The translations under genes were made by a program, and so were the position numbers. A stretch of 64,000 bases of DNA, from positions 1 through 64,000 of the forward strand of contig JAIETR010000005.1 in NCBI GenBank assembly GCA_019745075.1. The letters are read 5' to 3'. The notes under the pieces are model-generated. The model did no database searches. It was not told the DNA's origin and saw only the letters and a program-made list of their open reading frames with translations. How positions within the stretch are numbered: position 1 is the first letter of the stretch; every line of letters starts with the position of its first letter. Positions 31,403 to 60,938 of the stretch are shown one piece after another. Source of the DNA: Qipengyuania sp. (GTDB lineage: Bacteria; Pseudomonadota; Alphaproteobacteria; Sphingomonadales; Sphingomonadaceae).

Positions 31403-31431
31403 TTGTAAGTCCCACTTACATTTTGTAGAGG
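31403..31431 (+). promoter_or_regulatory. lig operon promoter overlapped by a 17-bp palindromic operator
   Basis: TGTAAGT-CCC-ACTTACA (31404-31420) is a perfect 7+3+7 palindrome. It overlaps a candidate promoter, TTGTAA (31403-31408), 17 bp, TAGAGG (31426-31431), about 30 nt before the operon start. The position over the -35 box suggests repression. Related palindromes occur at 38526, 45589, 49861, 51969 and 60922. Confidence 0.75.
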
Positions 31432-31459
31432 CTGCGCCAAGAGAGATGCCGAAACCGCG

Positions 31460-32278
31460 ATGACCCGCACGCTTCCCACTACCGCGCTCATCGGATTCGG
31501 CGAGGCCGCCAGCAGTTTCGCGCGCGCCGGGGGCTGGGGCGATCGCGCGATCGGCTGGGACATTCTTCCCCGGCGCCGCGCGGCGATGAGCGAGGACGGG
31601 GTCAAGGCGGCGCGGGCGGCGCCGGAGGCGATCGTCGGCGCGGACATCGTGCTCGGTCTCGTGACGGCGGACGCCGCGCTGTCCGCCGCCCGCGACTACG
31701 GCCCTTCGATCGATCCCGGCCAAATCTGGTGCGACATGAACTCGGTTTCGCCCGATACGAAGCGGCTGGCGGCGCAAGCGATACGCGAATCCGGCGGACG
31801 CTATGTCGATGTCGCGATCATGGCCCCGGTCCTGCCGGGTCGCCTGGCGGTGCCCTTGCTGATATCGGGTCCCGCAGCCGAAGAGGCCGACCGCCTGCTG
31901 CGCGAACTTGGCTTCGGCAATACCCGCGTGGTCGGGAGCGAGATCGGGCGCGCCAGCGCGATCAAGATGATCCGGTCGGTGATGGTCAAGGGGATCGAGG
32001 CGCTGACCGACGAGATGATGGCCGCCGCCGAGGCGGCGGGCGTGGCCGAGGAGGTGCTCGCCTCGCTCGAGGCCAGCGAGCGGGCGATGCCCTGGCCCGA
32101 GCGGGCCGCCTACAACCGCGAGCGCATGGCGGTGCACGGAGCCCGCCGCGCCGCCGAGATGGCCGAAAGCGCCGCGACGCTGCGCGCGCTCGGCGTGGAA
32201 CCGGTGATGACCGAGGGCACCGTGCGCCGCCAGCGCGAGGCCGCCCGGCCCTCCCCACCCAGCAAGGACGCGGCATGA
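31460..32278 (+). CDS. NAD-binding dehydrogenase of the 3-hydroxyisobutyrate/6-phosphogluconate family with DUF1932 C-terminus
   Basis: 272 residues. The N-terminal Rossmann domain opens TALIGFGEAASSFARAGG (GxGxxA). The helical C-terminal domain (SAIKMIRSVMVKGIEALTDEMMAAAEAAG) fits DUF1932. Proteins of this kind are seen in protocatechuate 4,5-cleavage clusters, but the reaction is not established to my knowledge. It is the first gene of a tightly packed operon: its stop overlaps the ligJ start by 4 nt. Confidence 0.82.
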   Translation: MTRTLPTTALIGFGEAASSFARAGGWGDRAIGWDILPRRRAAMSEDGVKAARAAPEAIVGADIVLGLVTADAALSAARDYGPSIDPGQIWCDMNSVSPDTKRLAAQAIRESGGRYVDVAIMAPVLPGRLAVPLLISGPAAEEADRLLRELGFGNTRVVGSEIGRASAIKMIRSVMVKGIEALTDEMMAAAEAAGVAEEVLASLEASERAMPWPERAAYNRERMAVHGARRAAEMAESAATLRALGVEPVMTEGTVRRQREAARPSPPSKDAA

Positions 32279-33294
32279 TCATCGACTGCCACGGCCATTA
32301 CACCGTGCTGCCCGAGGCGCACGACGCCTGGCGCGAGGCGCAGGTCGCCGCGTTCGCAGCGGGACGCCCGGCCCCGCCCTATCCCGAAATCGCCGACGAC
32401 GAAATCCGGCGGACGATCGAGGACAACCAACTCAGGCTCATCGGGGAGCGCGGCGCGGACCTGACCATCTTCTCCCCCCGCGCCAGCGCGATGGCGCACC
32501 ATGTCGGCGACCAGGCGGTGAGCGTAGAATGGGCACGCCGCTGCAACGACCTCGTCTATCGTGTCACCCGGCTTTATCCCGAGACCTTCGCGGGCGTGTG
32601 CATGCTGCCGCAATCGCCGCGGGCCGACCTCACCGAAAGCGTGCGCGAACTGCGCCGCTGCGTCGAGGATCTCGGCTTCGTCGGCTGCAATCTCAATCCG
32701 GACCCGGGCGGAGGCCATTTCACCGCCCCCCCGCTGACCGACGCTTACTGGTTCCCGATATACGAGGAAATGACCCGGCTCGACGTTCCGGCGATGATCC
32801 ACGTCTCGGGCAGCTGCAACCCGGCGATGCATGCCACCGGCGGCTTCTACATCGCCGCCGACACCGTGGCCTTCATGCAATTGCTCCAGGGCGATCTGTT
32901 CTCGCGTTTCCCGACCCTGCGCTTCATCGTCCCGCACGGCGGCGGCGGCGTGCCCTACCACTGGGGCCGCTATCGCGGCCTCGCCGACATGCTCGGGCGG
33001 CCCGGCCTCGACACCCATCTGATGAACAATGTGTTCTTCGACACCTGCGTCTATCACCAGCCGGGCATCGACCTGCTCGCCGAGGTCGTCGACGCGAAGA
33101 ACATCCTGTTCGGCAGCGAGATGGTCGGCGCGGTGCGCGGGATCGATCCCCAGACCGGCCATTATTTCGACGACACCAGGCGCTATATCGATGCGCTCGA
33201 CATTCCGGACGCCGACCGCGCGGCAATCTTCGAAGGCAACGCCCGGCGCGTGTTCCCGCGGCTCGACGCCGCCCTGAAGGAGCGCGGATTATGA
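32275..33294 (+). CDS. ligJ: 4-Oxalomesaconate hydratase
   Basis: A 339-residue amidohydrolase-2 family enzyme that hydrates 4-oxalomesaconate to 4-carboxy-4-hydroxy-2-oxoadipate. Seen: MIIDCHGHYTVLPEAHDAWR at the start, CNLNPDPGGGHFTAPPLTD, and FIVPHGGGGVPYHWGRYRG, all characteristic of LigJ. It is coupled at both ends by ATGA overlaps. The aldolase that acts next (LigK) was not found in the window. Confidence 0.94.
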   Translation: MIIDCHGHYTVLPEAHDAWREAQVAAFAAGRPAPPYPEIADDEIRRTIEDNQLRLIGERGADLTIFSPRASAMAHHVGDQAVSVEWARRCNDLVYRVTRLYPETFAGVCMLPQSPRADLTESVRELRRCVEDLGFVGCNLNPDPGGGHFTAPPLTDAYWFPIYEEMTRLDVPAMIHVSGSCNPAMHATGGFYIAADTVAFMQLLQGDLFSRFPTLRFIVPHGGGGVPYHWGRYRGLADMLGRPGLDTHLMNNVFFDTCVYHQPGIDLLAEVVDAKNILFGSEMVGAVRGIDPQTGHYFDDTRRYIDALDIPDADRAAIFEGNARRVFPRLDAALKERGL

Positions 33295-33574
33295 GCAGCG
33301 AGATCGGACGGGCGCCGACCGCTCACGCCAGCCGCTATCTCCAGCAGCTGGCCAAGCACTGGGCCCACGACAACCAGGTGACCTTCGACACGTGCCAGGC
33401 CGATATCGCGCTGCGCGGCAACCGGGTGGAGCTGCGCGCCGAGCCCGACGCGCTGGTCGCGACGCTCACCACCGGCCCGGAGGGCGACCCGGCCCGCCTG
33501 CGCCAGGTGTTCGAGGACCACATCGACCGCTTCGCCTTTCGCGAGGCGCCCCTGCCGTTCGAATGGAGCGCCGC

Positions 33575-33578
<4 letters not shown>
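33291..33578 (+). CDS. DUF2218-like small protein inside the lig operon
   Basis: 95 residues resembling DUF2218 proteins (SRYLQQLAKHWAHDNQVTFD, then a short beta-rich part ending LPFEWSAA). Function unknown. It overlaps the ligJ stop and the ligA start by 4 nt each, so it is translated in step with the ring-cleavage enzymes. Confidence 0.8.
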
Positions 33579-35848
<2,270 letters not shown>

Positions 35849-36382: not shown

Positions 36383-36400
36383 CCACGCGGCGCGCCAGCC

Positions 36401-36484
36401 CCTAATTAGGGACAGTCCCTAATTAGGGGCGGCCGGCGCGACGCGTGAAAGCAGCGAGCTAATTAGGGACTGTCCCTAATTAGG
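36401..36484. repeat. REP doublet 1
   Basis: Two palindromes with arms AATTAGGGAC / GTCCCTAATT around one central base (36404-36424 and 36461-36481), 36 nt apart. Confidence 0.93.
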
Positions 36485-36494
36485 AGGAGCGAGG

Positions 36495-37622: not shown

Positions 37623-39971
<2,349 letters not shown>

Positions 39972-43046: not shown

Positions 43047-43057
43047 CGCTTGCCTTC

Positions 43058-44631: not shown

Positions 44632-44647
44632 GGCCCCTCCCCCGCGC

Positions 44648-44744
44648 CAATTAGGGACAGTCCCTAATTCCGGGGCGGTCCTAAGGTCCGAACCGCCCGA
44701 TGGCAAGCGAATTGACCGCTAATTAGGGACTGTCCCTAATTAGC
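44648..44744. repeat. REP doublet 7
   Basis: REP cores at 44649-44669 and 44721-44741, 51 nt apart. The spacer has its own GGGCGGT/ACCGCCC stem. The doublet lies upstream of the RAYT gene and at the 3' end of the carotenoid oxygenase remnant. Confidence 0.92.
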
Positions 44745-45566
44745 GGTCACGCCGCCAGGCCCCGCCGAAGCGCAGGCGGATCGGCACCTGGACCGTCGCG
44801 ATCGGTCCCTTTTCGATCTCGAGCGCGTCGAACAGCAGCAGGTCGCTTCTGTGCTCGGCGAGGCGGTTGCAGACCTGGACGATCCAGCCGTCGCCCTCGG
44901 GCGCGTCACGCCCACGCGGGATGAAGCAGGGTTCCCGCAGGGTCGAGGTCGGGCCTACCCACCAGCGGTGTTCCGCGCCCGTCTCCAGATCCTTGAGGAA
45001 CAGGCAGTTCATCGGCGCCCCGCCCACGCTGCCGCCGACTTCCTCGACCGGGCGCCGGAAATCGACCTCCAGCCCCCAGGTATAACGGTTCCTGCGCCCG
45101 CCGAAGTTCTCGTAGCCGACGGTCTCCATCGTGGCGGGGTCCATCGCCAGCGCCGGCTGTCTTCCTTCAGGGCCCACGGCTTGCCGCCGAACAGCCAGGC
45201 GTCGGTGTTGGCGGTGCCGCGGATCCGGCCCTTCACCGCCGGGTCGTCGGTGAGCGGGTTGCGGTAGGCGCCGAACAGGCCCTTGCCCGCCGCGTTCTCG
45301 AGCTTCCACTTGTCGGTGCGCGCCCAGCGCTGGCGGAAGTCGCAGCGCCCGTCGTGAAAATGGAAACGGCCGATCATGCCGTCGCCGTTGAAGGAAATAT
45401 CGTCGCCCAGGCGCGGCGGGAATTGCGGATCGGGCTGGACGCGGTAGAACGCTTCGTCGAGTTCGCGGGGGATTTCACCTTCATGCGCCAGATCGGCGAT
45501 GTCGGCCTCGATCCGACTCGGCGTGTTGAAACCGGTGAAAGCAGGGGTCTGCGGAAAGGTCGCCAT
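44740..45566 (-). pseudogene. Carotenoid/lignostilbene dioxygenase family, internally deleted and frameshifted
   Basis: The N-terminal part ([14 protein letters not shown]...[20 protein letters not shown]...[22 protein letters not shown]) is one frame. After a one-base loss near 45160 it continues [20 protein letters not shown] and jumps to the C-terminal third ([16 protein letters not shown]...IPRGRDAPEGDGWIVQVCNRLAEHRSDLLLFDA). About 275 residues remain of an expected 480-500; the middle, with most iron-binding histidines, is gone. Relatives include lignostilbene dioxygenases of lignin catabolism. The 3' end is cut by REP doublet 7. It is divergent from the MarR gene. Confidence 0.85.
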
Positions 45567-45588: not shown

Positions 45589-45605
45589 TGTATGTGCCGC
45601 AAACA
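45589..45605. promoter_or_regulatory. Imperfect 17-bp operator upstream of marR
   Basis: TGTATGT-GCC-GCAAACA matches the island palindrome with weaker symmetry. It lies 20 nt before the MarR start, as expected for autoregulation. Confidence 0.6.
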
Positions 45606-45624: not shown

Positions 45625-46098
45625 ATGACAAGGCCGAAAGAGTTCCTGGTGCCGACCACCCCGCATGTCGAGGGTGACGAGGACATCGGAGAGATCCGCG
45701 ATATCGTCGGCTTCCACATCCGGCTGGCGCACGGGGCGGTTTACCGGCATTTCACCGACAGCTTCGCCGATCTCGAACTGACGCAGAAGCAGGTGTCGGT
45801 GCTGTGGCTGGTGGGCGATCATCCCGACATCGCGCAGACCGATCTCGCCAAGCGCATGCGGATGGACCGGGCGACCACGATGGCGATCGTCAACCGGTTG
45901 GAAGCGCGCGATTACCTGGTGCGCGGCCCCTCCGCGTCGGATCGCCGCAAGCAGACCCTGAACCTGACCAAAGCCGGGCGCGAAGCGCTGGTGGTGGCCA
46001 AGCAGGCGATTCGCAGCCACGAGGAATGGCTGAAGAGCCGCTTCAGCGAGGGGGAGGTCGCCCTGCTGATCGAGATGCTGAGCCGGATACACGAATAA
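45625..46098 (+). CDS. MarR-family transcriptional regulator
   Basis: 157 residues with a MarR winged helix: [69 protein letters not shown]. Such proteins bind palindromic operators as dimers and usually release on binding an aromatic ligand. It is the only transcription factor gene seen between 27 and 62 kb, so it is the best candidate reader of the TGTAwGy palindromes. In SYK-6 a MarR protein (DesR) controls O-demethylase genes. GAGAGGA precedes the ATG. It is followed 24 nt later by the MFS transporter. Confidence 0.9.
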
Positions 46099-47481: not shown

Positions 47482-48971
47482 AGCCCCATTTCCTCCAGCG
47501 CCCGCGCGCGCAGGAGGTGCTTCTGCACCTTGCCAGAAGCGGTGCGCGGGATGGGGCTGCCGATCACCGCGCTCCTGGGCACCTTGAACCTGGCGAGCCG
47601 TGCGGTGCAATGCGCGATCACCTGCTCGCCGGTCAGCGCGCAGCCGGGGGCGAGATTGACATAGGCCCGGCCGACCTCGCCCCAGCGCGCGTCGGGCACG
47701 CCGACGACCGCCGCCTCGGCCACCTCGGGCATCTCGGCGAGCACCGCCTCGACCTCGGCCGGATAGACGTTCTCGCCGCCGGAGATGTACATGTCCTTCT
47801 TGCGGTCGACGATGAAATGATAGCCTTCCTCGTCGCGCATCGCGGCGTCGCCGGTATGGAACCAGCCGTCGCGGAATGCATCGGCGGTCAGTTCGGGCTG
47901 CTCCCAATAACCCATCGCCACGCTCGGCCCCGCGATCAGCAGCTCGCCCTGCTCGCCGGGGCCGAGTTCGCGCCCTTCGTCGTCGACCACCTTGGCCCGC
48001 ACGGTCATCAGCGGCAGCCCGCAGCTTCCGGCATGGGCAAGCATCGTTTCGAGATCGAAAGGGGGAATGGCGAAATTGCTCCCGGTTTCGGACATGCCGA
48101 AGCCCTCCGAAATCCGCACCCCGGCGCGCAGGTAGCGTTCGGACTGGGCCTTGGGATTCGGCGCGCCGCCGATCGCCCAGGCGACGATCTTGGCCAGCTT
48201 CCCGGTATCGAACTCGGGCCGCTGCCACAGCGTCGCCGCCATCTGCGGGACCGAGAAATAATGCGTCACGCCGAGCGAAGGGTCGGTCATCCGCGCCAGC
48301 GTCGCTTCCGGATCGAAGCCCTCCGAGATCAACACCGTTCCGCCCGCCAGCAACGGCGTGCGCGTGGCGGCTTGCAGGCCCGCGGTGTGGAACAGCGGCA
48401 TGTCGCACAGGAAGGTGCTGTCCGGCCCCACCCCATTGCCGTGGATGAGATTGGTGCACCCCCAGAAGACATTGCGCTCCGACAGCATCACACCCTTGGG
48501 CCGCCCGCTGGTGCCCGAGGTGTAGAGCAGCGTGCTCACCGCCTCGACATCGCGCCGGGCCGTCACCGGCGGGACATCGCCATCGCCGCCGAGCCCGAGC
48601 ATCTCGGCGGTGTCGAGCGTGCGCGGCGCGTTGCCGGGCGGAGCGAAGCCCGGCTGGCGGAACAACAGCTCCGGGCGCGCATCGGCGACCAGCGCCTCGA
48701 GCTCGGGCAGTGCCAGCCGCCAGTTGAGCGGCATGAAGATCGCGCCCGCGCGGACGCAGCCAAGCTGCAGCACCACCATCTCGGCGCTGTTCTTCGACAG
48801 CACCGCGATCCGCTCTCCGCTGGCCGGACCGAACTCGCGCGCGAGCCACGCCGCCAGCCGGTCGACCGCGCGGTCGAGCTGGGCATAGCTCCAGCGCCGC
48901 CCGCTGGCGAGGTCCACCACCGCGAGGCGAGCGGGCATCGATTTCGCATAGGTGGCAACCGAATCGAGCAT
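47478..48971 (-). CDS. AMP-forming acyl-CoA synthetase, probably feruloyl-CoA synthetase
   Basis: A 497-residue ANL-family ligase. Seen: the P-loop LLYTSGTSGRPKG (residues 148-160), GFGMSETGSNF, the hinge DGWFHTGDAAMRDEEGYHFIVDRKKDMYISGGENVYPAEVE, and the C-terminal catalytic Lys in PRTASGKVQK. It would activate a hydroxycinnamate with ATP and CoA. The pairing 12 nt after a feruloyl-CoA hydratase-lyase gene makes ferulate or p-coumarate the likely substrate. Sphingobium SYK-6 uses a different type of FerA, so this would be the Pseudomonas Fcs-like solution. Confidence 0.85.
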   Translation of the reverse strand: MLDSVATYAKSMPARLAVVDLASGRRWSYAQLDRAVDRLAAWLAREFGPASGERIAVLSKNSAEMVVLQLGCVRAGAIFMPLNWRLALPELEALVADARPELLFRQPGFAPPGNAPRTLDTAEMLGLGGDGDVPPVTARRDVEAVSTLLYTSGTSGRPKGVMLSERNVFWGCTNLIHGNGVGPDSTFLCDMPLFHTAGLQAATRTPLLAGGTVLISEGFDPEATLARMTDPSLGVTHYFSVPQMAATLWQRPEFDTGKLAKIVAWAIGGAPNPKAQSERYLRAGVRISEGFGMSETGSNFAIPPFDLETMLAHAGSCGLPLMTVRAKVVDDEGRELGPGEQGELLIAGPSVAMGYWEQPELTADAFRDGWFHTGDAAMRDEEGYHFIVDRKKDMYISGGENVYPAEVEAVLAEMPEVAEAAVVGVPDARWGEVGRAYVNLAPGCALTGEQVIAHCTARLARFKVPRSAVIGSPIPRTASGKVQKHLLRARALEEMGL

Positions 48972-48983
48972 CGACGAACCTTC

Positions 48984-49823
48984 TCAGCGCTCGATCTTGC
49001 TGGTGTCGAAGGCGCCCAGCCCCGGCTTGAAGCTCTTCTCGTCGAGGAACTGGCGCGTCGCCTCCTTGCGCGCCGCCACCCCGCCGAAGCTGTGGAGCGC
49101 CTCCTGCGCGCGGATCAGATAATCCTCGGCATTGGCATAGGTCATCTCGGTCATGCGGCGCACCGCCCATTTGGTGGCGCGCAGCGTGTTCGGATCCTTC
49201 TTGAGCAGCGCCGCGGCGATCTCGCCGACCCGGGCCTCGAGCTGCCCGGCGGGCACCGCCTCGGTCACCAGCCCCTGCGCCTCGGCCTGCTTGCCGCTCA
49301 GATTCTCGCCCATCATCGCGTGATAGACCGCCTTCCTCAGCGGCATCAGGTCGGCCACCACCTTGCTCGCTCCGCCGCCGGGCAGGATGCCCCAGTTGAT
49401 CTCGCTGAGGCCGAACTGCGCGTCCTCCGCCGCGATCGCGATGTCGCAGGCGAACAGCGGGCCATAGCCGCCGCCGAAGCACCAGCCGTGGACCATCGCG
49501 ATGGTCGGCTTCTCGTACCAGCGCAGCCGCTCCCACCAGCTATAGGCCTCGCGCTGCGCCTTGCGCACGGCGTGCAGCCCCTCCTCCTCGGTGGCGCGGA
49601 AATATTCGCGCAGGTCCATGCCCGCCGACCAGGCCTCGCCCTCGCCCGCCAACACCAGCACGCCGACATCCTCGCGGAACTCCAGGCTCTCGATCACGCG
49701 CAGCATCTGGCGATTGAGCCCGGGGCTCATGCAATTGCGCTTCTCGGGCCGGTTGAACCGCACCCAGGCGATCCTATCCTTGACCTCGACGGCCACGGTG
49801 TCTTCTTCGGCGCGGTCGCTCAT
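48984..49823 (-). CDS. Feruloyl-CoA / p-hydroxycinnamoyl-CoA hydratase-lyase
   Basis: A 279-residue crotonase-fold enzyme that converts feruloyl-CoA to vanillin and acetyl-CoA. Features of this subgroup: NRPEKRNCMSPGLNRQM, WSAGMDLREYF (oxyanion hole), RWYEKPTIAMVHGWCFGGGYGPLFACDIAIAAEDAQFGLSEINWGI with the key Glu (residue 141). The position of the Ser in Pseudomonas HCHL (FSPL) is Gly here (YGPL). It is the first gene of a leftward pair with the synthetase, divergent from the GST gene across the operator at 49861. Confidence 0.9.
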   Translation of the reverse strand: MSDRAEEDTVAVEVKDRIAWVRFNRPEKRNCMSPGLNRQMLRVIESLEFREDVGVLVLAGEGEAWSAGMDLREYFRATEEEGLHAVRKAQREAYSWWERLRWYEKPTIAMVHGWCFGGGYGPLFACDIAIAAEDAQFGLSEINWGILPGGGASKVVADLMPLRKAVYHAMMGENLSGKQAEAQGLVTEAVPAGQLEARVGEIAAALLKKDPNTLRATKWAVRRMTEMTYANAEDYLIRAQEALHSFGGVAARKEATRQFLDEKSFKPGLGAFDTSKIER

Positions 49824-49860: not shown

Positions 49861-49877
49861 CGTATGCGACACTTACA
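49861..49877. promoter_or_regulatory. 17-bp operator-like palindrome between hydratase-lyase and GST genes
   Basis: CGTATGC-GAC-ACTTACA, a weaker member of the TGTAwGy-N3-rCwTACA family. The right half is perfect and the left half has one change from the 38526 site. Confidence 0.6.
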
Positions 49878-49901
49878 ATTCTAGCAAGCAGGATGACCCA
49901 C

Positions 49902-50810
49902 ATGGCCGACGCCCCCGATGCCGCGATGAACCAGCCCGCCGGCTATGTCCCGCCCAGGGTGTGGACCTGGGACCAGCCGAGCGGCGGCGCCTTCGCCAAT
50001 ATCAACCGGCCGGTCGGCGGCGCGACGCATGACAGGAACCTGCCGGTCGGCGATCATCCCATCCAGCTTTATTCGATGGGCACGCCCAACGGAGTCAAGG
50101 TCACCATCCTCCTCGAGGAGCTGCTGGCGGCTGGCCATTCGGGCGCGGAATACGACGCCTGGATGATCGAGATCGGCAAGGGCGACCAGTTCGGCAGCGG
50201 TTTCGTGGCGGTCAATCCCAACTCCAAGATTCCCGCGATGGTCGATCGCTCGATCGACCCGCCGGTGAATCTGTTCGAATCGGGCTCGATGATGCTCTAT
50301 CTGGCCGAGAAGTTCGGCGCCTTTCTCCCCACGGAGGTTCACGCCCGCGCCGCCACCGTCAACTGGCTGATGTGGCAGATGGGCAGCGCGCCTTTCGTGG
50401 GCGGCGGCTTCGGCCATTTCTTCGCCTATGCCCCGTTCAAGATCGAATATGCGATCAACCGCTATGCGATGGAGACCAAGCGCCAGCTCCATGTCCTCGA
50501 CACCCAGCTCGCGACGAACGAATATGTCGCGGGCGGCGCGTACACGATCGCCGACATGGCGGTCTGGCCGTGGTACGGCTCGATCGCCAGGGAAGCCTAT
50601 GGCGCGCAGGAGTTCCTGGGGGTCGACGAGTATAAGAACCTGATGCGCTGGGTCGAGCAGGTCGGCGCCCGCGAGGCGGTCAAGCGCGGCCGCATGGTCA
50701 ACCGCACCTTCGGCAGCCCCGAGACCCAGCTGCGCGAGCGCCACTCCGCCAGGGACTTCGAGATCAACCGCGAGGACATGGTCGAGGCGCGAGGAGGCGA
50801 GCGCGTCTAA
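49902..50810 (+). CDS. Nu-class glutathione S-transferase (YghU-like), possible lignin beta-etherase partner
   Basis: 302 residues. A long N-terminal arm is followed by a thioredoxin-fold GSH domain (IQLYSMGTPNGVKVTILLEELLAAG with the TxNGxKV motif of the YghU/nu group; VNPNSKIPAMVDR; FESGSMMLYLAEKFG) and a helical domain. Nu-class GSTs of Novosphingobium act in glutathione-dependent beta-O-4 ether breakdown, so a similar role fits here. ATG at 49902 is preferred to 49893 because AGG lies at a normal distance upstream. Confidence 0.85.
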   Translation: MADAPDAAMNQPAGYVPPRVWTWDQPSGGAFANINRPVGGATHDRNLPVGDHPIQLYSMGTPNGVKVTILLEELLAAGHSGAEYDAWMIEIGKGDQFGSGFVAVNPNSKIPAMVDRSIDPPVNLFESGSMMLYLAEKFGAFLPTEVHARAATVNWLMWQMGSAPFVGGGFGHFFAYAPFKIEYAINRYAMETKRQLHVLDTQLATNEYVAGGAYTIADMAVWPWYGSIAREAYGAQEFLGVDEYKNLMRWVEQVGAREAVKRGRMVNRTFGSPETQLRERHSARDFEINREDMVEARGGERV

Positions 50811-51943
50811 CCGAGGCGCGCGCCCGCGATATCCGCCCCTTCGCGCAGGCTGCGCAGCTTCTTCCAGGTCACCTCCGGGTCGATCTTGCCGTAACCGGCG
50901 AAGGTGCCGAAGCCGCAGTCGGTGCTGGCGATCACCCGCTCGGGGCCGACGATCGCGGCGAAGCGCTCGATACGCTGGGCGATCAGTTCGGGATGTTCGA
51001 CATAGTTCGAGCAGGTGTCGATCATGCCCGGCGCGAGGATCTTGTCCTCGGGAAGGTCCGCGTCGCGCCAGACGGTCCATTCGTGTTCGTGGCGCGGGTT
51101 GGCGCTCTCGAACAGGATGGTCGCCGGACGCGCCTTGAGAACGGCGCCGAGGATCCTGGCGAGATCGATGTCGCAGTCATGCGGCCCTTCGTAATTGCCC
51201 CAGCAGATGTGCATCCGCATTCGCTCGGGCGGGATGTTGGCGGTCGCTTCGTTGAGCGCGGCGACATTCGCCTCGGCAAGCGCGAGGAATTCGGCGTCGG
51301 ACAAGTCCTGGAAGCCGGTGTGGCGGCTCATCGCGAGGTCGGGACAGTCGAGCTGGAGGAAGAACCCGGCCGCGACGATCGCTTCGTATTCGGGGCGCAT
51401 CGCCGCAGCGAGATCGGCGAGATAGGCCTCCTGCGTCGGGTAGTGGCGATTGAGCTGGAAGGCGCTGACGAGGCCGGGCGAAGCGGCGTTCATGAAAGCC
51501 TCGGTGTCGGGCTTGGCGTGCTTCGCCAGCGCGGCCGCGAAGCGGCGGATGTCGTCGCGGAGCGGCTCGAGCGTCACCAGCTCGACCTTGTCCACGCAGC
51601 TCGCGCGGACGAAATCCTGGCTGCCCATGATCGCCGCGAGCTTGCCGGCGAGGCCCGGATGCGCGGCCAGATCCATGGCGGGTTTGCGGTCGACATGGCC
51701 GCCGAAGCCCGAAAGGCGCTCGATCACATAGGTCGAATAGCCGATCTTGCCGATCTCGCCGTCGCTGACGATGTCGACCCCCGCCTCGATCTGGCGCCTT
51801 ACCGCCTCGTCCACGGCATCGCTGACCAGCCGGTCGAATTCCCCGGTATCGTATGGCTCGCCCTTGTCGCGCGCTCCCAGCAGCGGCACCAGCTCGTCGC
51901 CGCGCGGCAGCGAGCCGACATGCGTGGTCCGAATGCGCCCCAT
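50807..51943 (-). CDS. Cobalamin-independent methionine synthase-like protein (MetE C-terminal domain type)
   Basis: A 378-residue single barrel related to the catalytic half of MetE. It opens RIRTTHVGSLPRGDEL. The zinc set is complete: His and Cys in MHICWGN, Glu in ILFESANPRHEHEW, Cys in ASTDCGFGTF. It lacks the N-terminal MetE domain, as in short core-MetE/Mes proteins. It could pass methyl groups from 5-methyl-THF, or another donor, to homocysteine. It is divergent from the second LigM-type gene across the operator at 51969, so it fits a methyl-disposal role. Confidence 0.85.
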   Translation of the reverse strand: MGRIRTTHVGSLPRGDELVPLLGARDKGEPYDTGEFDRLVSDAVDEAVRRQIEAGVDIVSDGEIGKIGYSTYVIERLSGFGGHVDRKPAMDLAAHPGLAGKLAAIMGSQDFVRASCVDKVELVTLEPLRDDIRRFAAALAKHAKPDTEAFMNAASPGLVSAFQLNRHYPTQEAYLADLAAAMRPEYEAIVAAGFFLQLDCPDLAMSRHTGFQDLSDAEFLALAEANVAALNEATANIPPERMRMHICWGNYEGPHDCDIDLARILGAVLKARPATILFESANPRHEHEWTVWRDADLPEDKILAPGMIDTCSNYVEHPELIAQRIERFAAIVGPERVIASTDCGFGTFAGYGKIDPEVTWKKLRSLREGADIAGARLG

Positions 51944-51967: not shown

Positions 51968-51995
51968 TTGTAAGTGTTGCTTACAAACTTAGCGC
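51968..51995 (+). promoter_or_regulatory. Promoter with 17-bp operator upstream of the second ligM-type gene
   Basis: TGTAAGT-GTT-GCTTACA (51969-51985) overlaps TTGTAA (51968-51973), with TAGCGC 16 bp downstream. The geometry is the same as at 31403, with the operator covering the -35 box. Confidence 0.7.
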
Positions 51996-52040: not shown

Positions 52041-53450
52041 ATGACCCAAAGCCTTCAATCGGTGCTCGACGGCGCGGGCGACATCGTCGCGTTCCTGCGC
52101 AACCAGCAGGTCGGCCCGAACGTCTATCCGGGCGTGCCGGCGGAGTTCTCCAACTGGCGCGACGAGCAGCGCGGCTGGGCCGAGACCTGCGTGCTGTTCA
52201 ACCAGAGCTACCACATGGCCGAACTCATGATCGAAGGACCCGGAGCCTTCGAATTCCTCCACGGCCTGGGCATCAACAGCTTCAAGGGCTTCGTCCCGAT
52301 GAAGGCCAAGCAGTTCGTGCCGGTCACGCACTATGGCCATGTGATCGGCGATGTCATCCTGTTCTATCTCGCCGAGGAAAAGTTCAACCTCGTCGGCCGC
52401 GCGCCCACCCTCAACTGGGCGATGTTCCATGCCGAGGGCAAGCAGGGCGTCGCCGTCACCTACGACGAGCGCACCGCCGCCCGGCCCGATCCGGCGAACC
52501 GCCGCCACTACCGCTACCAGGTGCAGGGGCCAAATTCGAACGCGGTCATCGAGGACGCAACCGGCCGGCCGGCGCCCGAACTCAAGTTCTTCAACATGTG
52601 CGAGCTACAGATCGGCGGCAGCACCGTGACCGCGCTGCGGCACGGCATGGCGGGCCAGCCCGGCTACGAGCTGATGGGGCCGTGGGCAGATCGCGACGCG
52701 GTGCATGGGGCGCTGGTCGAGGCCGGCAGGAAGCACGGCATGAAGCTGGTCGGCGGACGGACCTACTCCTCGAACACCATCGAATCGGGCTGGATTCCCT
52801 CGCCTCTCCCCGGCATCTACACCGGCGAGAAGCTCCAGCCCTATCGCGAATGGCTGTCCGCCAGTCACTACGAGGCCAAGGCCTCGGTCGGCGGATCGTG
52901 GGTGCCGGACAGCGTCGAGGGCTATTACCTGACGCCCTGGGACCTGGGCTACGGCGCCTTCGTCAAGTTCGACCACGATTTCGTCGGCCGCGAGGCGCTT
53001 GAGGCCATCGCCGACGGCCCGCACCGCCGCAAGGTCACCATAGCTCTCGACGATGCCTCGGTCTCGGAGGCCATCTACGGCCAGTTCGGAAAAGGCGAGT
53101 TGCGGCCCAAATACATGGAGTTTCCGAGCGCGGTCTATGCGATGCACCCGTTCGACCGCGTCGAGGTGGACGGCCGGCTGGTCGGCCTCTCGACCTGGAT
53201 CGCCTACAGCGCGAACGAGGGCAAGATGCTGACGCTGGCGATGCTGGACGAAGCCCATGCCGAGCCCGGCACCGAGGTCGATCTGATCTGGGGCGAGCCC
53301 GATGGCGGGACCAGCAAGCCGACGGTCGAGAAGCACAGGCAGATCGCGATCCGGGGCGTGGTCGCACCGGTGCCCTACAGCGAGGTCGCGCGCACCAGCT
53401 ACGCGCCGAGCTGGCGCAATCAGGCCGCATTGGCGGAAACCGCGTCATGA
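52041..53450 (+). CDS. ligM: Vanillate / 3-O-methylgallate O-demethylase, LigM type (paralogue 2)
   Basis: A 469-residue GcvT-fold, THF-dependent O-demethylase. From memory it follows SYK-6 LigM nearly throughout: NWRDEQRGWAETCVLFNQSYHM, NSFKGFVPMKAKQFVPVT, VIGDVILFYLAEEKFNLVGRAP, LRHGMAGQPGYELMGPWAD, GGRTYSSNTIESGW (active-site Tyr), TLAMLDEAHAEPGTEVDLIWGEPDGGTSKPTVE. It demethylates vanillate to protocatechuate, giving 5-methyl-THF. It overlaps the next gene by ATGA and is divergent from the metE-like gene. Confidence 0.92.
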   Translation: MTQSLQSVLDGAGDIVAFLRNQQVGPNVYPGVPAEFSNWRDEQRGWAETCVLFNQSYHMAELMIEGPGAFEFLHGLGINSFKGFVPMKAKQFVPVTHYGHVIGDVILFYLAEEKFNLVGRAPTLNWAMFHAEGKQGVAVTYDERTAARPDPANRRHYRYQVQGPNSNAVIEDATGRPAPELKFFNMCELQIGGSTVTALRHGMAGQPGYELMGPWADRDAVHGALVEAGRKHGMKLVGGRTYSSNTIESGWIPSPLPGIYTGEKLQPYREWLSASHYEAKASVGGSWVPDSVEGYYLTPWDLGYGAFVKFDHDFVGREALEAIADGPHRRKVTIALDDASVSEAIYGQFGKGELRPKYMEFPSAVYAMHPFDRVEVDGRLVGLSTWIAYSANEGKMLTLAMLDEAHAEPGTEVDLIWGEPDGGTSKPTVEKHRQIAIRGVVAPVPYSEVARTSYAPSWRNQAALAETAS

Positions 53451-54969: not shown

Positions 54970-55773
54970 TCAGGCGAACCAGTAGGCCACGGCGCGCATC
55001 TCGATGCTGGCGCGCGGCGGGGCGCCGGCCGGCACGTTCGGGTCATCGAATGCGACGTGCGGGACGACATTGCCGAATTCCGAATCGCTGCTCTTGAACA
55101 CGATCGCTTCGTCGCGCGTCATGTCCGAGAACCAGTACCAGCGGTGGCCGGGATTGTGCGCCACCAGCCAGCTCTCGAAGCTCCATTCGGGCGCGCCGCC
55201 GGGCGGGTCGAAGATCGCGTCGGCGCTCAGCAAATCCGCCTCGGCGACCGAGCGCGCGTCGCACAGCGCCAGCGGGACATCCTGCGGCGCGCCGCTGAAG
55301 GCTCGCCAGACGTTGTAATGGGCGTAGCGCGCGATCTTGCGGCCCTCGGGCATGCTCCTGGCCGCAAAGCCGGCCGAGGTCGCGGCGGTGGCGTCGATGT
55401 GAGCGAAGCGCGCGGGGTGCGAATTGTCGAGGCTGCCGGCGCGGCCCGAAGCCTCGGAAAATCGCAGCACGCCGGGAGAGGCGACGATCGCCTCGTCTGC
55501 GCCGGTCACCCGTTTGAGCAACGCGACGATTTCCTCGGGATGCTTCACCGCGACCTCGGCCTTGTCGGTGAAATCATGCACGCCGCTCACATGCGGAACA
55601 CATATGAAGCCCTCGCGATCGAGCGATTGATCGGAACCTCGGGCGTCCGCGATCGGCATCGGATAGGGCGCCACCACCACCGTGTCCCGACTGTGGTCGT
55701 TGGCATGATAGCGCTGCCGGAATTCGGTCCGCGCTGCATAGGCGATCGGCGCCTCGATCGCCCTATCCGGCAT
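54970..55773 (-). CDS. CmcJ/NvfI (AsaB-like) family oxidoreductase
   Basis: 267 residues with the family blocks FAHIDATAATSAGFAARSMPEG, YNVWRAFSGAPQDVPLALCDARSVAEADL, WYWFSDMTRDEAIVFKSSDSEFGNVVPHVAFDDP. Relatives come from fungal and bacterial secondary metabolism and often act as isomerases, hydroxylases or methoxylation partners. No function can be given here. The start lies 11 nt inside the fdsD end, so it may be translated with the formate dehydrogenase operon. Confidence 0.8.
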   Translation of the reverse strand: MPDRAIEAPIAYAARTEFRQRYHANDHSRDTVVVAPYPMPIADARGSDQSLDREGFICVPHVSGVHDFTDKAEVAVKHPEEIVALLKRVTGADEAIVASPGVLRFSEASGRAGSLDNSHPARFAHIDATAATSAGFAARSMPEGRKIARYAHYNVWRAFSGAPQDVPLALCDARSVAEADLLSADAIFDPPGGAPEWSFESWLVAHNPGHRWYWFSDMTRDEAIVFKSSDSEFGNVVPHVAFDDPNVPAGAPPRASIEMRAVAYWFA

Positions 55774-56047
55774 CTGAGCCTCCGCTTTCGTGCGCCGCGT
55801 TGAATTCGGTGGCGCGAGTCTGCGGCGGCGGCTCGTTGCCAGTCGCCAGCAACCGCAGCGCCCGCTCCGCGACCGGAGAAAAGTCTGCCCCGCCTAGCAG
55901 ATCGGCGGAGATCGCCCGCAGGCGCGGGTCCCAGAAATGCGCGATGTGATCGGCCGTGGCGAGCGCCGCGTGCTCCTCGTCGAGATGGGCGAAATTGCGT
56001 GCGATCTGGTTCGCCATCCGGACCACCGACTGGGCCGTGCCGCTCAT
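55763..56047 (-). CDS. fdsD: NAD-dependent formate dehydrogenase, delta subunit
   Basis: 94 residues with the FdsD pattern VVRMANQIARNFAHLDEEHAALATADHIAHFWDPRLRAISADL. This small subunit is needed for maturation or stability of the Fds complex in relatives. Its start overlaps the fdsA stop (ATGA). The fdsC gene that commonly lies between fdsA and fdsD is absent here. Confidence 0.92.
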   Translation of the reverse strand: MSGTAQSVVRMANQIARNFAHLDEEHAALATADHIAHFWDPRLRAISADLLGGADFSPVAERALRLLATGNEPPPQTRATEFNAAHESGGSDAG

Positions 56048-58887
56048 CCGGCCGCCTCGGCCTCGATCCGCCGGCTGCGCTCGGTCAACTCGGTATAGTC
56101 CTCCTGCCAGTCGCTCGGGCCGTTGCTCGGCGTCACCTGCACCGCGGTAACCTTGTATTCGGGGCAGTTGGTGGCCCAGTCGCTGAACTCGGTGGTGACG
56201 ACATTGGCCTGCGTGGCAGGGTGGTGGAAGGTGGTGTAGACCACGCCCGGCGCGACCCGGTCGGTGACCTTGACCCGCAGCGTGGTCTCGCCCGTGCGGC
56301 TGGCGAGGCGGCTCCAGTCGCCGCTCTTGAGGCCGCGGTTCTCGGCATCGACGGGGTGCATTTCGAGCAGGTCCTCGGGATGCCACACGGCGTTGGCGGT
56401 GCGCCGCGTTTGCGAGCCGACATTGTACTGGCTGAGGGTGCGCCCGGTGGTCAGCAGCAGCGGATAGCGCGGACCGGTGCGCTCGTCGGTGGGGACGTAT
56501 TCGGTGACCACGAACTTGCCCTTCCCGCGCACGAAAGCGTCCACGTGCATGACCGGCGCGCCATCGGGGAACCGGTCGTTGACCGGCCATTGCAGCGATC
56601 CCGCCCGCTCCAGCCGCTCCCAGCTCACGCCCGCGAAACTTGGGGTCAGCCGCGCAATCTCGGCGAGTATCTCGCTGGCATGGCCGTAGCTCCAGTCGAG
56701 CCCCATTGCCCGCGCCAATGCCTGGGTGACCTGCCAATCCTCCATCCCATTGGCCGGCTCCATCACCTTCCGCACGGGCTGGATGCGCCGTTCGGCATTG
56801 GTGAAGGTGCCGTCCTTCTCGAGGAAGGTGCTGCCCGGCAGGAAGACATGCGCGTAGTTGGCGGTTTCGTTCAGGAACAGGTCGTGGACGATCACGCAGT
56901 CCATCGCCGCCAGCCCCGCCGCGACATGCTGCGTGTTGGGGTCGGACTGGAGGATGTCCTCGCCCTGGATGTAGATGCCGCGAAACGCCCCGTCGATCGC
57001 GGCATCGAGCATGTTGGGGATGCGCAGCCCCGGCTCGCTGTCGAGCGGGACGCCCCAGTCGGCCTCGAACAGCGCGCGCGTCTCGGCGTCGGAGATGTGG
57101 CGGTAGCCCGACAGCTCGTGCGGAAAGCTGCCCATGTCGCAGGCGCCCTGGACATTGTTCTGGCCGCGCAGCGGGTTCACCCCCACCCCCGGCCGCCCGA
57201 TGTTGCCCGTCGCCATCGCGAGGTTGGCGATCGCCATTACCGTGCTGGAGCCCTGCGAATGCTCGGTGACGCCGAGTCCGTAGTAGATCGCGCCGTTGCC
57301 GCCGGTCGCGAACAGCCGCGCCGCGCCGCGCAGATCGGCGGCGGGCACGCGGGTGACCGCCTCCAGGGTCTCGGGCGAATGGCGCTCGCCGGCAACGAAC
57401 CGCGCCCAATCCTGGTATTCGTCCCAATCGCAGCGTGCGCGAACGAAGGTCTCGTCCGCGAGTCCCTCGGTGACGATGACATGCGCCAGCGCGGTCAGCA
57501 CCGCGACATTGGTGCCCGGCTGAAGCGGCAGGTGAAAGGCCGCCTCGACATGCGGGGAACGCACGAGATCGATGCGGCGCGGATCGATCACGATCAGCCG
57601 CGCGCCCTGCCTGAGCCGCTTTTTGAGCCGGCTGGCGAAGACCGGGTGCCCGTCGGTGGGATTGGCGCCGATCACGATCACGACATCGCTATGCTCGACG
57701 CTGTCGAAATCCTGCGTCCCCGCGCTGGTGCCAAAGGTGGTCTTGAGCCCGTAGCCGGTGGGCGAATGGCACACCCGGGCGCAGGTATCGACATTGTTGG
57801 TCCCGAACCCGGCGCGGACCAGCTTCTGGACCAGGAAGGTCTCCTCATTGGTGCACCGGCTGCTGGTGATGCCCCCCAGCGCGCGCGGCCCGCTCTCGGC
57901 CCTGATCCGGTTCAATCGCTCCGCCGCGAACCCCAGTGCTTCGTCCCAGCCCACCTCACGCCAGGGCCGGTCGATGCTCTCGCGGATCATCGGTGTGGTG
58001 ACGCGGTCCCGGTGGTTGGCGTATCCCCAGGCGAAGCGGCCCTTGACGCAGCTATGCCCGCGGTTGGCCTTGCCGTCCTTCCACGGCACCATCCGCACCA
58101 GCTGCTCGCCGCGCATTTCCGCGCGGAACGTGCAGCCGACGCCGCAATAGGCGCAGGTGGTGACCACCGCGCGTTCGGGTTTGCCGATCTCGACTACCGC
58201 CTTTTCCATCAGCGCCGCGGTCGGGCAGGCCTGCACGCAGGCGCCGCAGCTCACGCAGTCGCTGGCCATGAAATCGTCGCCCGCCTGCCCGGCGCTGACG
58301 GCGGAGCCGAACCCACGCCCGTCGATCGTCAGCGCGAAAGTGCCCTGCACCTCGTCGCAGGCGCGCACGCAACGGCTGCAGACGATGCATTTGTCCGGCG
58401 CGAAGGCGAAATAGGGGTTGGAAAAATCGGTCGCGCTACCGAGGTGGTTGGCGCCCTCGTAACCGTAGCGCACGTCGCGCAAGCCTACCGCCGCGGCCTC
58501 GTCCTGCAGCTCGCAATCGTTGTTGGCGCTGCAGGTCAGGCAATCGAGCGGGTGATCGGAGATATAGAGCTCCATCACGCCGCGCCGCAGCCGGGCGAGC
58601 CGCCCGGACTGGGTAACGACCGCCATTCCTTCCTCGACCGGCGTGGTGCAGCTCGCGGGCGTGCCGCGCCGCCCCTCGATCTCGACCAGGCACAGCCGGC
58701 AAGACCCGAACGCCTGCATGTTGTCGGTGGCGCAGAGCCTGGGAATGTGGCCGCCGGCCTCGCTGGCGGCGCGCATCACGCTGGTCCCGGCGGGAACGGT
58801 GACGCTGCGGCCGTCGATGGTGAGTGTGACCTGCTCCTCCGCTGGCGAAGGCGGCGTGCCGAAATCGGCCTGGCGCTCAAATCCCAT
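56044..58887 (-). CDS. fdsA: NAD-dependent formate dehydrogenase, alpha (molybdenum) subunit
   Basis: 947 residues. N-terminal [2Fe-2S] domain (CATDNMQAFGSCRLCLVEI), NuoG-like segment (SDHPLDCLTCSANNDCELQ), two ferredoxin 4Fe-4S motifs (CIVCSRCVRACDEVQG and CVSCGACVQACPTAAL), then the molybdopterin domain with its own [4Fe-4S] (CAYCGVGCTF) and the Mo-ligand Cys in VDTCARVCHSPTGYGL. It oxidises formate to CO2. It overlaps fdsB by 11 nt and fdsD by 4 nt. Confidence 0.95.
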   Translation of the reverse strand: MGFERQADFGTPPSPAEEQVTLTIDGRSVTVPAGTSVMRAASEAGGHIPRLCATDNMQAFGSCRLCLVEIEGRRGTPASCTTPVEEGMAVVTQSGRLARLRRGVMELYISDHPLDCLTCSANNDCELQDEAAAVGLRDVRYGYEGANHLGSATDFSNPYFAFAPDKCIVCSRCVRACDEVQGTFALTIDGRGFGSAVSAGQAGDDFMASDCVSCGACVQACPTAALMEKAVVEIGKPERAVVTTCAYCGVGCTFRAEMRGEQLVRMVPWKDGKANRGHSCVKGRFAWGYANHRDRVTTPMIRESIDRPWREVGWDEALGFAAERLNRIRAESGPRALGGITSSRCTNEETFLVQKLVRAGFGTNNVDTCARVCHSPTGYGLKTTFGTSAGTQDFDSVEHSDVVIVIGANPTDGHPVFASRLKKRLRQGARLIVIDPRRIDLVRSPHVEAAFHLPLQPGTNVAVLTALAHVIVTEGLADETFVRARCDWDEYQDWARFVAGERHSPETLEAVTRVPAADLRGAARLFATGGNGAIYYGLGVTEHSQGSSTVMAIANLAMATGNIGRPGVGVNPLRGQNNVQGACDMGSFPHELSGYRHISDAETRALFEADWGVPLDSEPGLRIPNMLDAAIDGAFRGIYIQGEDILQSDPNTQHVAAGLAAMDCVIVHDLFLNETANYAHVFLPGSTFLEKDGTFTNAERRIQPVRKVMEPANGMEDWQVTQALARAMGLDWSYGHASEILAEIARLTPSFAGVSWERLERAGSLQWPVNDRFPDGAPVMHVDAFVRGKGKFVVTEYVPTDERTGPRYPLLLTTGRTLSQYNVGSQTRRTANAVWHPEDLLEMHPVDAENRGLKSGDWSRLASRTGETTLRVKVTDRVAPGVVYTTFHHPATQANVVTTEFSDWATNCPEYKVTAVQVTPSNGPSDWQEDYTELTERSRRIEAEAAG

Positions 58888-60436
58888 GAGTTTGCTCCGC
58901 CATCCCCTTACCAGATTGTGGCGCGAGGCCGAAATCCTCTGGCCAATGCTTCAGCGCGCTCAGCACTGGAAAGGGCGTGAACCCGCCCAATGCGCAGAGC
59001 GAGCCGTAGGTCATGGTCTCGCACAGGTCTTCGAGCAGCGTCACCTCCTCGGCCTGGCTACGCCCGGTCTTCCGCGAATTGTGCATTTGCGGCGCGCATT
59101 CGAGCCCCTCCGGGCTCCGACCGCCCGCGCGGATGCGATCGATGACCGCGACCCCGCGCACCGCGCCGATCCGGCAGGGGGTACATTTGCCGCAGCTTTC
59201 GGCGGCGCAGAATTGCATCGCGAAGCGCGCCATCGCGCCCATGTCGGTCCTGTCGTCGAAGACGGTGATCCCGCCATGCCCGATCAGCGCGTCGGCCGCG
59301 GTGTAGCTTTCGTAGTCGAAGGCGATGTCGAACTGATCGGGATGGAGGTAGGCGCCGAGCGGCCCGCCCACCTGCACCGCCTTGACCGGGCGCCCCGAGG
59401 CCGTTCCCCCGCCGATGCCATGGACCAACTCGTCGAGCGTGACGCCGAAGGCGGTCTCGTAAAGTCCGCCGTGCCTGATGTTGCCCGCGAGCTGGATCGG
59501 CATCGTGCCCCTGCTGCGCGCGAAGCCGAGCCCGCCGTAGTGCCCTGCCCCGCCCTCGGCGAGGATATGCGGCATAGCGGCAAGCGTGAGCACATTGTTG
59601 ACCACCGTGGGGCAACCGAACAGCCCGGCGATGGCGGGGAGCGGCGGCTTGGCGCGAACCTCGCCGCGTCTGCCTTCGAGCGAGTTGAGGAGCGAGGTTT
59701 CCTCGCCGCAGATATAGGCCCCAGCCCCAACGCGGACCTCGATTTCGAACGGCGAGATACGGGGCGCGGCGAGCGGGATCGCGGCTTCGAGCTTGCGGAT
59801 CGCATCGGGGTATTCGCCGCGGACGTAGATATAGCCCCGCTGCGCGCCCACCGCCAGCGCGGCGATGGCCATGCCCTCGATCAGCGCGAAGGGATCCCCC
59901 TCCATCAGCATCCTGTCGGCGAAGGTGCCGCTGTCTCCCTCGTCGGCGTTGCAGACGATGTATTTGCGGGCGCCGGGGGTGTCGGCAACCGTGCGCCATT
60001 TGATTCCCGCCGGGAAGCCCGCCCCGCCGCGCCCGCGCAGCCCGGAGGCGATGACTTCCTCGACAACCGTCGCCGGTCCGATCGCCCTGGCGCGTTCGAG
60101 CGCGGCCCAGCCCCCGGTCGCGGCAAAGTCCGCGAGGCTCAGCGGCCGCGTCTTCCCGGCGCGCGCGAACGTCAGCCGCTGCTGGTCCGCCATAAATGGG
60201 TGATCGGCAATGCGGTCGATTGCCTTGTCGCAGGTTCCGTCGAGAATGGCCGCGACATCGTCGGCAGTCACCGGGCCCCAGCCCTCTCCCTCGATCTCGA
60301 CCAGGGGTTCGAGCCAGTGCATGCCCCAGCTGGAGACCCTCTCGACCGTGGCGCCGCGCCGTGCGAATTCGGCCGCCACCGCGTCCGCGCCGCAGGCGCG
60401 CGCCAGCGCGTCGTCGGAGATGCGGACCGTCCTCAT
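58877..60436 (-). CDS. fdsB: NAD-dependent formate dehydrogenase, beta (flavin) subunit
   Basis: A 519-residue NuoF-like subunit. It has an N-terminal thioredoxin-like part, the NAD site GLRGRGGAGFPAGIKW, the FMN region YIVCNADEGDSGTFADRMLMEGDPFALIEGM, GAGAYICGEETSLLNSLEG, and the 4Fe-4S motif ESCGKCTPCRIG. It passes electrons to NAD+. The ATG at 60436 overlaps the fdsG stop; a longer upstream frame is rejected. Confidence 0.95.
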   Translation of the reverse strand: MRTVRISDDALARACGADAVAAEFARRGATVERVSSWGMHWLEPLVEIEGEGWGPVTADDVAAILDGTCDKAIDRIADHPFMADQQRLTFARAGKTRPLSLADFAATGGWAALERARAIGPATVVEEVIASGLRGRGGAGFPAGIKWRTVADTPGARKYIVCNADEGDSGTFADRMLMEGDPFALIEGMAIAALAVGAQRGYIYVRGEYPDAIRKLEAAIPLAAPRISPFEIEVRVGAGAYICGEETSLLNSLEGRRGEVRAKPPLPAIAGLFGCPTVVNNVLTLAAMPHILAEGGAGHYGGLGFARSRGTMPIQLAGNIRHGGLYETAFGVTLDELVHGIGGGTASGRPVKAVQVGGPLGAYLHPDQFDIAFDYESYTAADALIGHGGITVFDDRTDMGAMARFAMQFCAAESCGKCTPCRIGAVRGVAVIDRIRAGGRSPEGLECAPQMHNSRKTGRSQAEEVTLLEDLCETMTYGSLCALGGFTPFPVLSALKHWPEDFGLAPQSGKGMAEQTHGI

Positions 60437-60855
60437 GCGGCCTCGATCAGGCGGCGCAGGCCCTCGGCGTCGAGCCGGGCATGGAGCGCATCGCCCACCC
60501 GCGCGCTCGGTCCGACACTGCACAGCCCCAGGCAATAGACCGTCCTCAGCAGCACTCGCTCCCCCGCCGCCGCTTGCGCCCCGGAAATGAGCGCCTCGAC
60601 CCCGCGCGCCTGGCAGGCCTCGGCGCGGCAGATCTGCACCTCGGGCCTTGGGTCGCGCTCAGCCGCGAAGTCGTGGTAGAAGCCGACCACGCCATGCACT
60701 TCGGCGCGGCTCAGGTTGAGCGCCAGCGCGATTGCCGCCTCGCTGGCCGGACTGACGCAACCGAAGGCGACCTGCACGTCGCGCAGGATCGGCAGCAGCG
60801 CCCCTTCGCGGCCCAGGTGGCGCGCCAGGATGTCGTCGAGATCGGCCCCGGCCAT
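60433..60855 (-). CDS. fdsG: NAD-dependent formate dehydrogenase, gamma subunit
   Basis: A 140-residue NuoE-like [2Fe-2S] subunit with the Cys ligands spaced as in ICRAEACQARG and VYCLGLCSVGPSARV. It is the first gene of the leftward operon fdsG-B-A-D. It is divergent from ligE, with the palindrome at 60922 between them. This links formate oxidation to the lignin regulon. Confidence 0.93.
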   Translation of the reverse strand: MAGADLDDILARHLGREGALLPILRDVQVAFGCVSPASEAAIALALNLSRAEVHGVVGFYHDFAAERDPRPEVQICRAEACQARGVEALISGAQAAAGERVLLRTVYCLGLCSVGPSARVGDALHARLDAEGLRRLIEAA

Positions 60856-60921
60856 GATCGCTTGTGCTACCTCTTCCCGCTCCCAGATGAAACCTTTGCC
60901 CTTGCCGTGGCAAGCGGAAAT

Positions 60922-60938
60922 TGTAAGTGTTACCTACA
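60922..60938. promoter_or_regulatory. 17-bp operator between fdsG and ligE
   Basis: TGTAAGT-GTT-ACCTACA, a palindrome of the island family with one mismatched pair. On the minus strand it offers TACAAT as a possible -10 for fdsG. Confidence 0.7.

Follow-up and report, generated by a model that had tools for sequence, protein, structure and literature searches.

A predicted DesR-type switch spanning a lignin-aromatics island of Qipengyuania sp.

Can a single repressor govern a whole island of genes for the use of lignin-derived aromatics? Lignin-degrading sphingomonads are under development for use as sensors and as production strains. The systems described so far, those of SYK-6 and Novosphingobium aromaticivorans, use separate regulators, with LigR serving ring cleavage. 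The question is raised by 64,000 nucleotides of Qipengyuania sp. (GenBank assembly GCA_019745075.1, contig JAIETR010000005.1, positions 1 to 64,000, forward strand), here called the window, in which a 17-bp palindrome recurs in six divergent gene gaps. An original prediction, made from the letters alone, had proposed that a MarR-family protein encoded in the island binds these sites as one switch. Our analysis supports that proposal through the orthology of this protein with the known repressor DesR, the match of the sites to published DesR operators, and the way in which the motif follows DesR across genomes. We consider it very likely that one DesR-type switch acts over the island through the six operators.

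The six palindromes lie where the original prediction had placed them and have the same letters. They occupy the 172-bp gap between ligU and the DUF1932-ligJABC operon (31404..31420), where LigR-type genomes carry ligR-ligK; the gap between purU and ligM-metF (38526..38542); the gap between a carotenoid-oxygenase fragment and marR, an autoregulatory position (45589..45605); the gap between ferB-ferA and a glutathione S-transferase (GST) gene (49861..49877); the gap between a metE-like gene and desA (51969..51985); and the gap between fdsGBAD and a ligE-like gene followed by an aldo/keto reductase (AKR) gene (60922..60938). Gene starts and Pfam matches confirm that each lies between divergent gene starts. 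A search of the window for TGTAwGyNNNrCwTACA with at most two mismatches returns exactly these six sites, of which those at 31404, 38526 and 51969 fit exactly and those at 45589, 49861 and 60922 have one mismatch. None of 100 dinucleotide shuffles of the window reached six matches (mean 0.25, maximum 2). In the genome assembly (3.02 Mb, 94% complete), at most one mismatch again gives six matches, all inside the window, against one for a reversed control pattern, and the looser TGTwwGyNNNrCwwACA with at most one mismatch gives the same six only, against two for its control. Two mismatches give 15 matches in the assembly and 15 in the control, so the weaker genome matches are noise. A test set beforehand, whether the motif is equally common elsewhere in the genome, thus went in favor of the prediction, matches with at most one mismatch being confined to the window. 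The shuffles and the reversed-pattern controls rule out a chance origin of the six sites.

Which protein would read them? The MarR-family gene (45625..46098, plus strand; Pfam MarR_2, 1.4e-14) has its own copy of the site at 45589, as predicted. According to Araki et al. 2019 (PMC6888825), DesR of SYK-6 is a repressor of ligM, desB and desR that binds three 15-bp repeats, IR-B, IR-M and IR-R; its effectors are vanillate and syringate, IR-M spans -40 to -26 of ligM, and electrophoretic mobility shift assays (EMSA) on its sites have been published. Over its inner 15 bp, the window motif is matched by the published IR-R without deviation. With the window's MarR protein as query, the SYK-6 locus obtained has IR-R starting at 9829, 76 nt before an in-frame TTG at 9905; it thus lies 76-62 nt upstream of the orthologous gene, which is the published distance, so that the SYK-6 orthologue of the window's MarR protein is DesR (SLG_12870). 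The two proteins are 66% identical over 140 amino acids and share an identical 16-residue stretch in the recognition helix of the helix-turn-helix. The neighbors keep the SYK-6 order as well: a broken carotenoid-oxygenase-family gene (44740..45566, minus strand; two RPE65 fragments), marR, and directly after it an MFS transporter gene (46123..47481, plus strand; Pfam MFS_1), with the oxygenase 74% identical to its SYK-6 orthologue and the transporter 70% identical to the gene beside desR. Judged by sequence comparison, DesR thus has its orthologue in the MarR protein of the island.

The operators can be compared independently of the motif. A weight matrix built from the three published DesR operators alone, without any window sequence, ranks the six sites first to sixth in the window, with scores of 13.6-20.0 (the highest at 49861) and the next position at 10.8; the expected number of matches of at least 13.55, estimated over 50 random sequences, is 0.28. 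The operator positions of desR itself and of ligM are occupied by the sites at 45589 and 38526. In the window's genome, the DesR orthologue is the one MarR homologue at E ≤ 1e-25. A FerC orthologue was not found there, the sole match being the DesR orthologue itself (27%); a DesX orthologue was not found either, with only a 25% IclR match; and LigR has no match at E ≤ 1e-40, nine of 26 LysR candidates having been scored. Within the scope of these searches, a regulator other than the MarR protein is rejected. The genome has one LigB/DesB-type match at E ≤ 1e-75, the ligB of the lig operon, a cut-off within which SYK-6 DesB (2.0e-76) barely falls.

It could also be argued that the palindromes are a promoter feature, such as -35 elements, or chance, and not MarR sites at all. 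The letters TTGTAA at the start of the lig site do resemble a -35 box, but the shuffle and reversed-pattern controls, the link of the motif to the presence of DesR (see below) and the published EMSA on sites of the SYK-6 orthologue (PMC6888825) leave this explanation hardly credible.

Does the motif follow the regulator elsewhere? Of 199 genomes of the family, 32 contain the exact motif, with 60 sites in all; the control pattern gives 10 matches. DesR (E ≤ 1e-25) is present in 31 of the 199, and the exact motif is found in 26 of these 31 versus 6 of the 168 without DesR (Fisher test, 4.9e-22, with kinship ignored). The three sampled genomes of the same genus lack both DesR and ligB, and the distribution of the island is therefore patchy. 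Outside the window's genome there are 57 exact sites: 14 lie 28-43 bp before DUF1932, the first gene of the ligJABC operon, another 12 lie at ligM, and 2 at fdsG or metE/desA. For named marR loci (the best 80 of 109), we scored the regions upstream of orthologues with the published-site matrix at a threshold of 10. A site lies upstream of marR in 62 of the 80 loci (inside the gene in 2 of 80), of ligM in 15/15, of purU in 6/6, of desA in 6/6, of the metE-like gene in 3/3 (one barely at threshold), and of the carotenoid oxygenase, counted through homologues of the first fragment, in 55/56. Genes taken as operon-internal give 0/10 for fdsA, 0/11 for fdsB, 0/10 for ferA, 0/62 for mfs and 1/8 for metF. 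Target support is uneven: strong for ligM, purU, desA, the metE-like gene, marR and lig, and thinner for ferB, fds and GST; the regulon has a conserved core and a variable rim.

What, then, of ring cleavage? In SYK-6 and N. aromaticivorans the lig operon is under the LysR activator LigR. In both, ligR lies between ligK and the DUF1932 gene (PMC12710314), and the order ligK-ligR-DUF1932 is also seen in the SYK-6 sequence. In the window, ligI (29268-30137, minus strand; Pfam Amidohydro_2, 77% to SYK-6) and ligU (30229-31287, minus strand; PrpF, 76%) diverge from the genes for a DUF1932 dehydrogenase, LigJ, a DUF2218 protein, LigA, LigB and LigC (31460..35848, plus strand; Pfam, SYK-6 orthologues 51-83%), and no ligR stands beside the operon. 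All 56 genomes of the same family with a ligB match were classified. In 37, the promoter gap contains ligR, and the operon is not preceded by a DesR-type operator, the best score between ligR and DUF1932 being at most 8.6. In 15, the window's genome included, an operator scoring 11.8-19.2 lies 28-44 bp upstream and ligR is absent there. The remaining four have neither ligR nor a DesR gene; a scan of two of them, those other than G117 and G183, shows no site. None of the 56 combines ligR in the gap with the operator. Both states occur within one genus (group g15), where G014 has ligR and G103 and G165 have the operator. If the whole gap including ligR itself is scored, LigR-type rows reach 11.7, touching the lowest operator score of 11.8. 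The 30 genomes that have both DesR and ligB divide 15 versus 15 without overlap (Fisher test, 1.3e-8, with kinship ignored). The LigR-like protein of G102 (43%) is encoded on another contig and was therefore not scored as a ligR beside the operon; second lig copies (e.g., in G119) fall outside the comparison, and two of the 37 LigR matches contain in-frame stops (G063, G074).

The exact LigR box TTnGCN6TTAT occurs in 28 of the 37 LigR-type gaps and in none of the 17 gaps without ligR, which are shorter. The window's lig gap has no exact LigR box and one 1-mismatch copy at 31331; such 1-mismatch boxes number nine in the window against 11 expected, that is, no more than chance. In quick trees with 16 operator rows (G200, introduced below, was added), the starred branches force at least 8 state changes for DUF1932+ligJ, 4 for ligU+ligI and 5 for ligB, counts that recombination inside the operon may inflate. 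Independent pairs (8, 4 and 5, respectively) are all opposite in state (sign test 0.008, 0.125 and 0.063), and a single clade is rejected on ligB (p-AU 2.7e-10). The three trees disagree on the placement of the window, so the lig operon looks mosaic; the window's ligB is 91% identical to that of a LigR-type operon, and its lig promoter resembles those of the 14 relatives. The DUF2218 gene between ligJ and ligA (window 33291-33578) occurs in 15/15 operator operons versus 5/39 others; it has no match in G200 or in the SYK-6 pieces compared. Although ligI, U, J, A, B and C are present, the LigK aldolase has no match in the window's genome, and of the 15 operator-type operons only the window's lacks ligK beside it. 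The last pathway step may be carried out by another aldolase, or ligK may lie in the missing 6% of the assembly.

The loss of ligR might have been incidental, leaving the operons constitutive or under an unlinked LysR protein, with DesR adding only a vanillate brake. Mutual exclusion of ligR and operator is possible if both follow lineage, G102 has its LigR-like protein on another contig, and the LysR candidates of the window's genome have been scored for nine of 26. However, the exact LigR boxes go with ligR and are missing from the (shorter) gaps without it, and the exchange needs at least 4-8 changes on the gene trees; we regard incidental loss as unlikely, with some weight left to it. It is probable that in this family control of the lig operon has repeatedly passed between the product-sensing LigR (protocatechuate and gallate) and the substrate-sensing DesR (vanillate and syringate), with the DesR operator settling in the gap once held by ligR, and that the exchange is complete here, with one repressor over the whole pathway as well as over one-carbon (C1) and formate disposal.

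How would such a switch work? The lig-operon site begins one base into the letters TTGTAA, found in the window and 12 of the 14 relatives (TTGTAT in the other two), and the window and all 14 share a TA at one position, 6-7 bp beyond the site. The two are candidate -35 and -10 elements, the -35 overlap being judged by consensus, and with candidate elements so placed around the site, occlusion by a repressor is the simplest reading. The six palindromes would then be operators of the island's DesR orthologue, a DesR dimer on each 17-bp site blocking both promoters of the divergent pair. An O-methylated aromatic acid (vanillate or syringate in SYK-6) would release DesR, and up to twelve transcription units, one of them the broken carotenoid oxygenase, would come on together: marR with the transporter, the demethylases LigM and DesA, the genes for recycling C1 units and formate, those for ferulate entry and for ether cleavage, and the protocatechuate 4,5-cleavage operon. 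The limits of these operons are predicted ones. At the lig operon, a DesR operator would thus stand in place of the LysR activator LigR.

A second island bears on the same question. In a metagenome-assembled genome of Erythrobacter sp. Ww121 (G200), contig C24 carries a similar island with ten sites scoring 14.8-22.0. Sites lie at purU/ligM-metF, at ferB/fdsG, at ligK/DUF1932 and, twice, at desA/metE-like; the lig site is about 20 bp from the likely start of DUF1932, with no ligR there, and the lig promoter is unlike the window's. Further sites stand near a PQQ dehydrogenase, an aldehyde dehydrogenase, a glyoxalase/TPP-enzyme pair, a TonB receptor and an MFS gene. The published matrix finds no site upstream of the marR of G200.

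Several observations weigh against a single DesR-type switch. With the published-site matrix, the top score in single random sequences reaches 17.1, so one site alone proves little. Six genomes have one exact motif and no DesR (against the background of 10 control matches in 199 genomes), and five DesR genomes, including the one taken as SYK-6 from its coordinates, have no exact motif. Upstream of marR, 18 of the 80 loci score below 10, that of G200 included, and the few lig genes in those loci have no site (e.g., DUF1932, 0/1), while the ligE comparison has n = 0. For 24 of the 57 exact sites, no gene that starts within 400 bp is homologous to a window gene, and for five the only such homologue is weak. 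The 14 relatives with the lig operator were initially selected by the exact motif. The site lies upstream of a minority of the rim genes: GST in 3/9, fdsG in 2/11 (one only at threshold) and ferB in 2/17. Finally, the pobA-like gene has no site in front of it in a window scan with motif and published-site matrix, so that the original prediction's 'no copy in the pobA gap' holds on rescanning, and growth on 4-hydroxybenzoate is unexplained if DesR alone controls ring cleavage. This gene (25735-27117, minus strand) encodes a FAD monooxygenase, adjoins the regulon, and its product would feed the ring cleavage placed here under DesR.

These points allow a narrower explanation, in which the sites are real at ligM, desA, purU and marR, those at lig, ferB, fdsG and ligE are weakly bound or serve another regulator, and ring cleavage is run mainly in some other way. 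The low ferB and fdsG counts speak for it, as do the lack of a site at pobA and the score of the lig site, the lowest of the six (13.6). On the other side, every one of the six outscores all other window positions, the lig site recurs in 14 more genomes at 28-44 bp from the start and was found in none of the 37 LigR-type ligR-DUF1932 gaps, and G200 also has sites at ferB/fdsG and lig. We give this narrower explanation little credence and retain one DesR-type switch over the island.

The remaining island genes, whose lig, fer and fds names are assigned by homology, are as follows. The formyl-tetrahydrofolate hydrolase-like purU (37626..38477, minus strand; Pfam Formyl_trans_N and ACT) diverges from the ligM orthologue (38571-39971, plus strand; GCV_T, 77% to SYK-6 LigM) and metF (40089-40970, plus strand; MTHFR, 49% to SYK-6). 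Between ligC and purU, fragments of a TonB receptor and an amidohydrolase (35897-37237) suggest gene decay. A phage terminase large-subunit gene (41763-43076, minus strand) lies within the island between metF and the carotenoid-oxygenase fragments, and an IS200-type transposase adjoins the latter two-fragment gene (window 43966-45566). The ferA-like acyl-CoA ligase (AMP-binding) and enoyl-CoA hydratase (ferB) genes (47478..49823, minus strand; Pfam, ferB 67% to SYK-6) diverge from the GST gene (49893..50810, plus strand; GST_C). A short MetE-like methyltransferase gene (50807..51943, minus strand; Meth_synt_2, 71% identical to a gene close to the lig cluster of SYK-6) is divergent from desA, and its product may handle the methyl group of 5-methyl-tetrahydrofolate. 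Beyond desA follow the NAD-dependent formate dehydrogenase genes fdsGBAD (55763..60855, minus strand) and, divergently, the genes for the ligE-like GST (60964-61809, plus strand) and the AKR (61806-62798, plus strand), all by Pfam. Several window open reading frames have no Pfam match. For an unlinked vanillin-dehydrogenase-like gene there are only 32-40% matches on other contigs, with no site there.

The desA orthologue, of the syringate O-demethylase type (52041..53450, plus strand; GCV_T), had been called ligM in the original prediction, and this name has to be revised. Its protein is 67% identical to SYK-6 2692378-2693763, which we take to be DesA, versus 50% to SYK-6 LigM, which rules out a second LigM; in SYK-6, the counterpart gene lies next to one IclR-type and one MarR-type gene and a homologue of ferB. 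The LigM orthologue is the 38571 gene, whose SYK-6 counterpart has the published operator IR-M upstream, at 1385352.

DesR and its operator were already known; the predicted breadth of the regulon and the probable LigR/DesR exchange are new. In the open-licence literature DesR and LigR are described separately, and we found there no account of the lig operon, fds or desA being under DesR, of a LigR/DesR exchange or of an island-wide regulon; the words DesR, MarR and motif are absent from the LigR paper. In public DAP-seq data of N. aromaticivorans (PMC12352068; GEO GSE291618), three MarR proteins show 38, 9 and 1 peaks. If the proposal is true, the picture of separate regulators fails in roughly one in four of the sampled genomes with a lig operon (15/56), where ring cleavage would respond, by way of DesR, to methoxylated substrates. 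The island would then be a natural one-switch system for engineering, and the lig promoter a traceable case of repeated activator-to-repressor exchange.

Like the DesR regulon of SYK-6 (ligM-metF-ligH, desB and desR), the island has an orthologous MarR protein with the same neighbors, operators that match, and predicted targets that include ligM and the regulator gene itself; to these it would add desA, purU, the metE-like gene, ferBA, GST, fdsGBAD, ligE-AKR and the lig operon. The loose motif, when run over the 200 kb of SYK-6 sequence compared, matches the three published sites only. With the LigR regulon of SYK-6 and N. aromaticivorans it shares the operons DUF1932-ligJABC and ligUI and the promoter gap between them, but the gap contains neither ligR nor an exact LigR box, and has a DesR-type operator, with MarR instead of a LysR activator. 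In SYK-6, ferBA is reportedly controlled by FerC, also of the MarR family, so MarR-type control of ferulate genes is common to both, whereas the window's genome yielded no FerC orthologue. The desA gene of SYK-6, reported as not under DesR, is said to be controlled by the IclR-type DesX; here the same target gene has a DesR-type operator, as it does in all six relatives compared.

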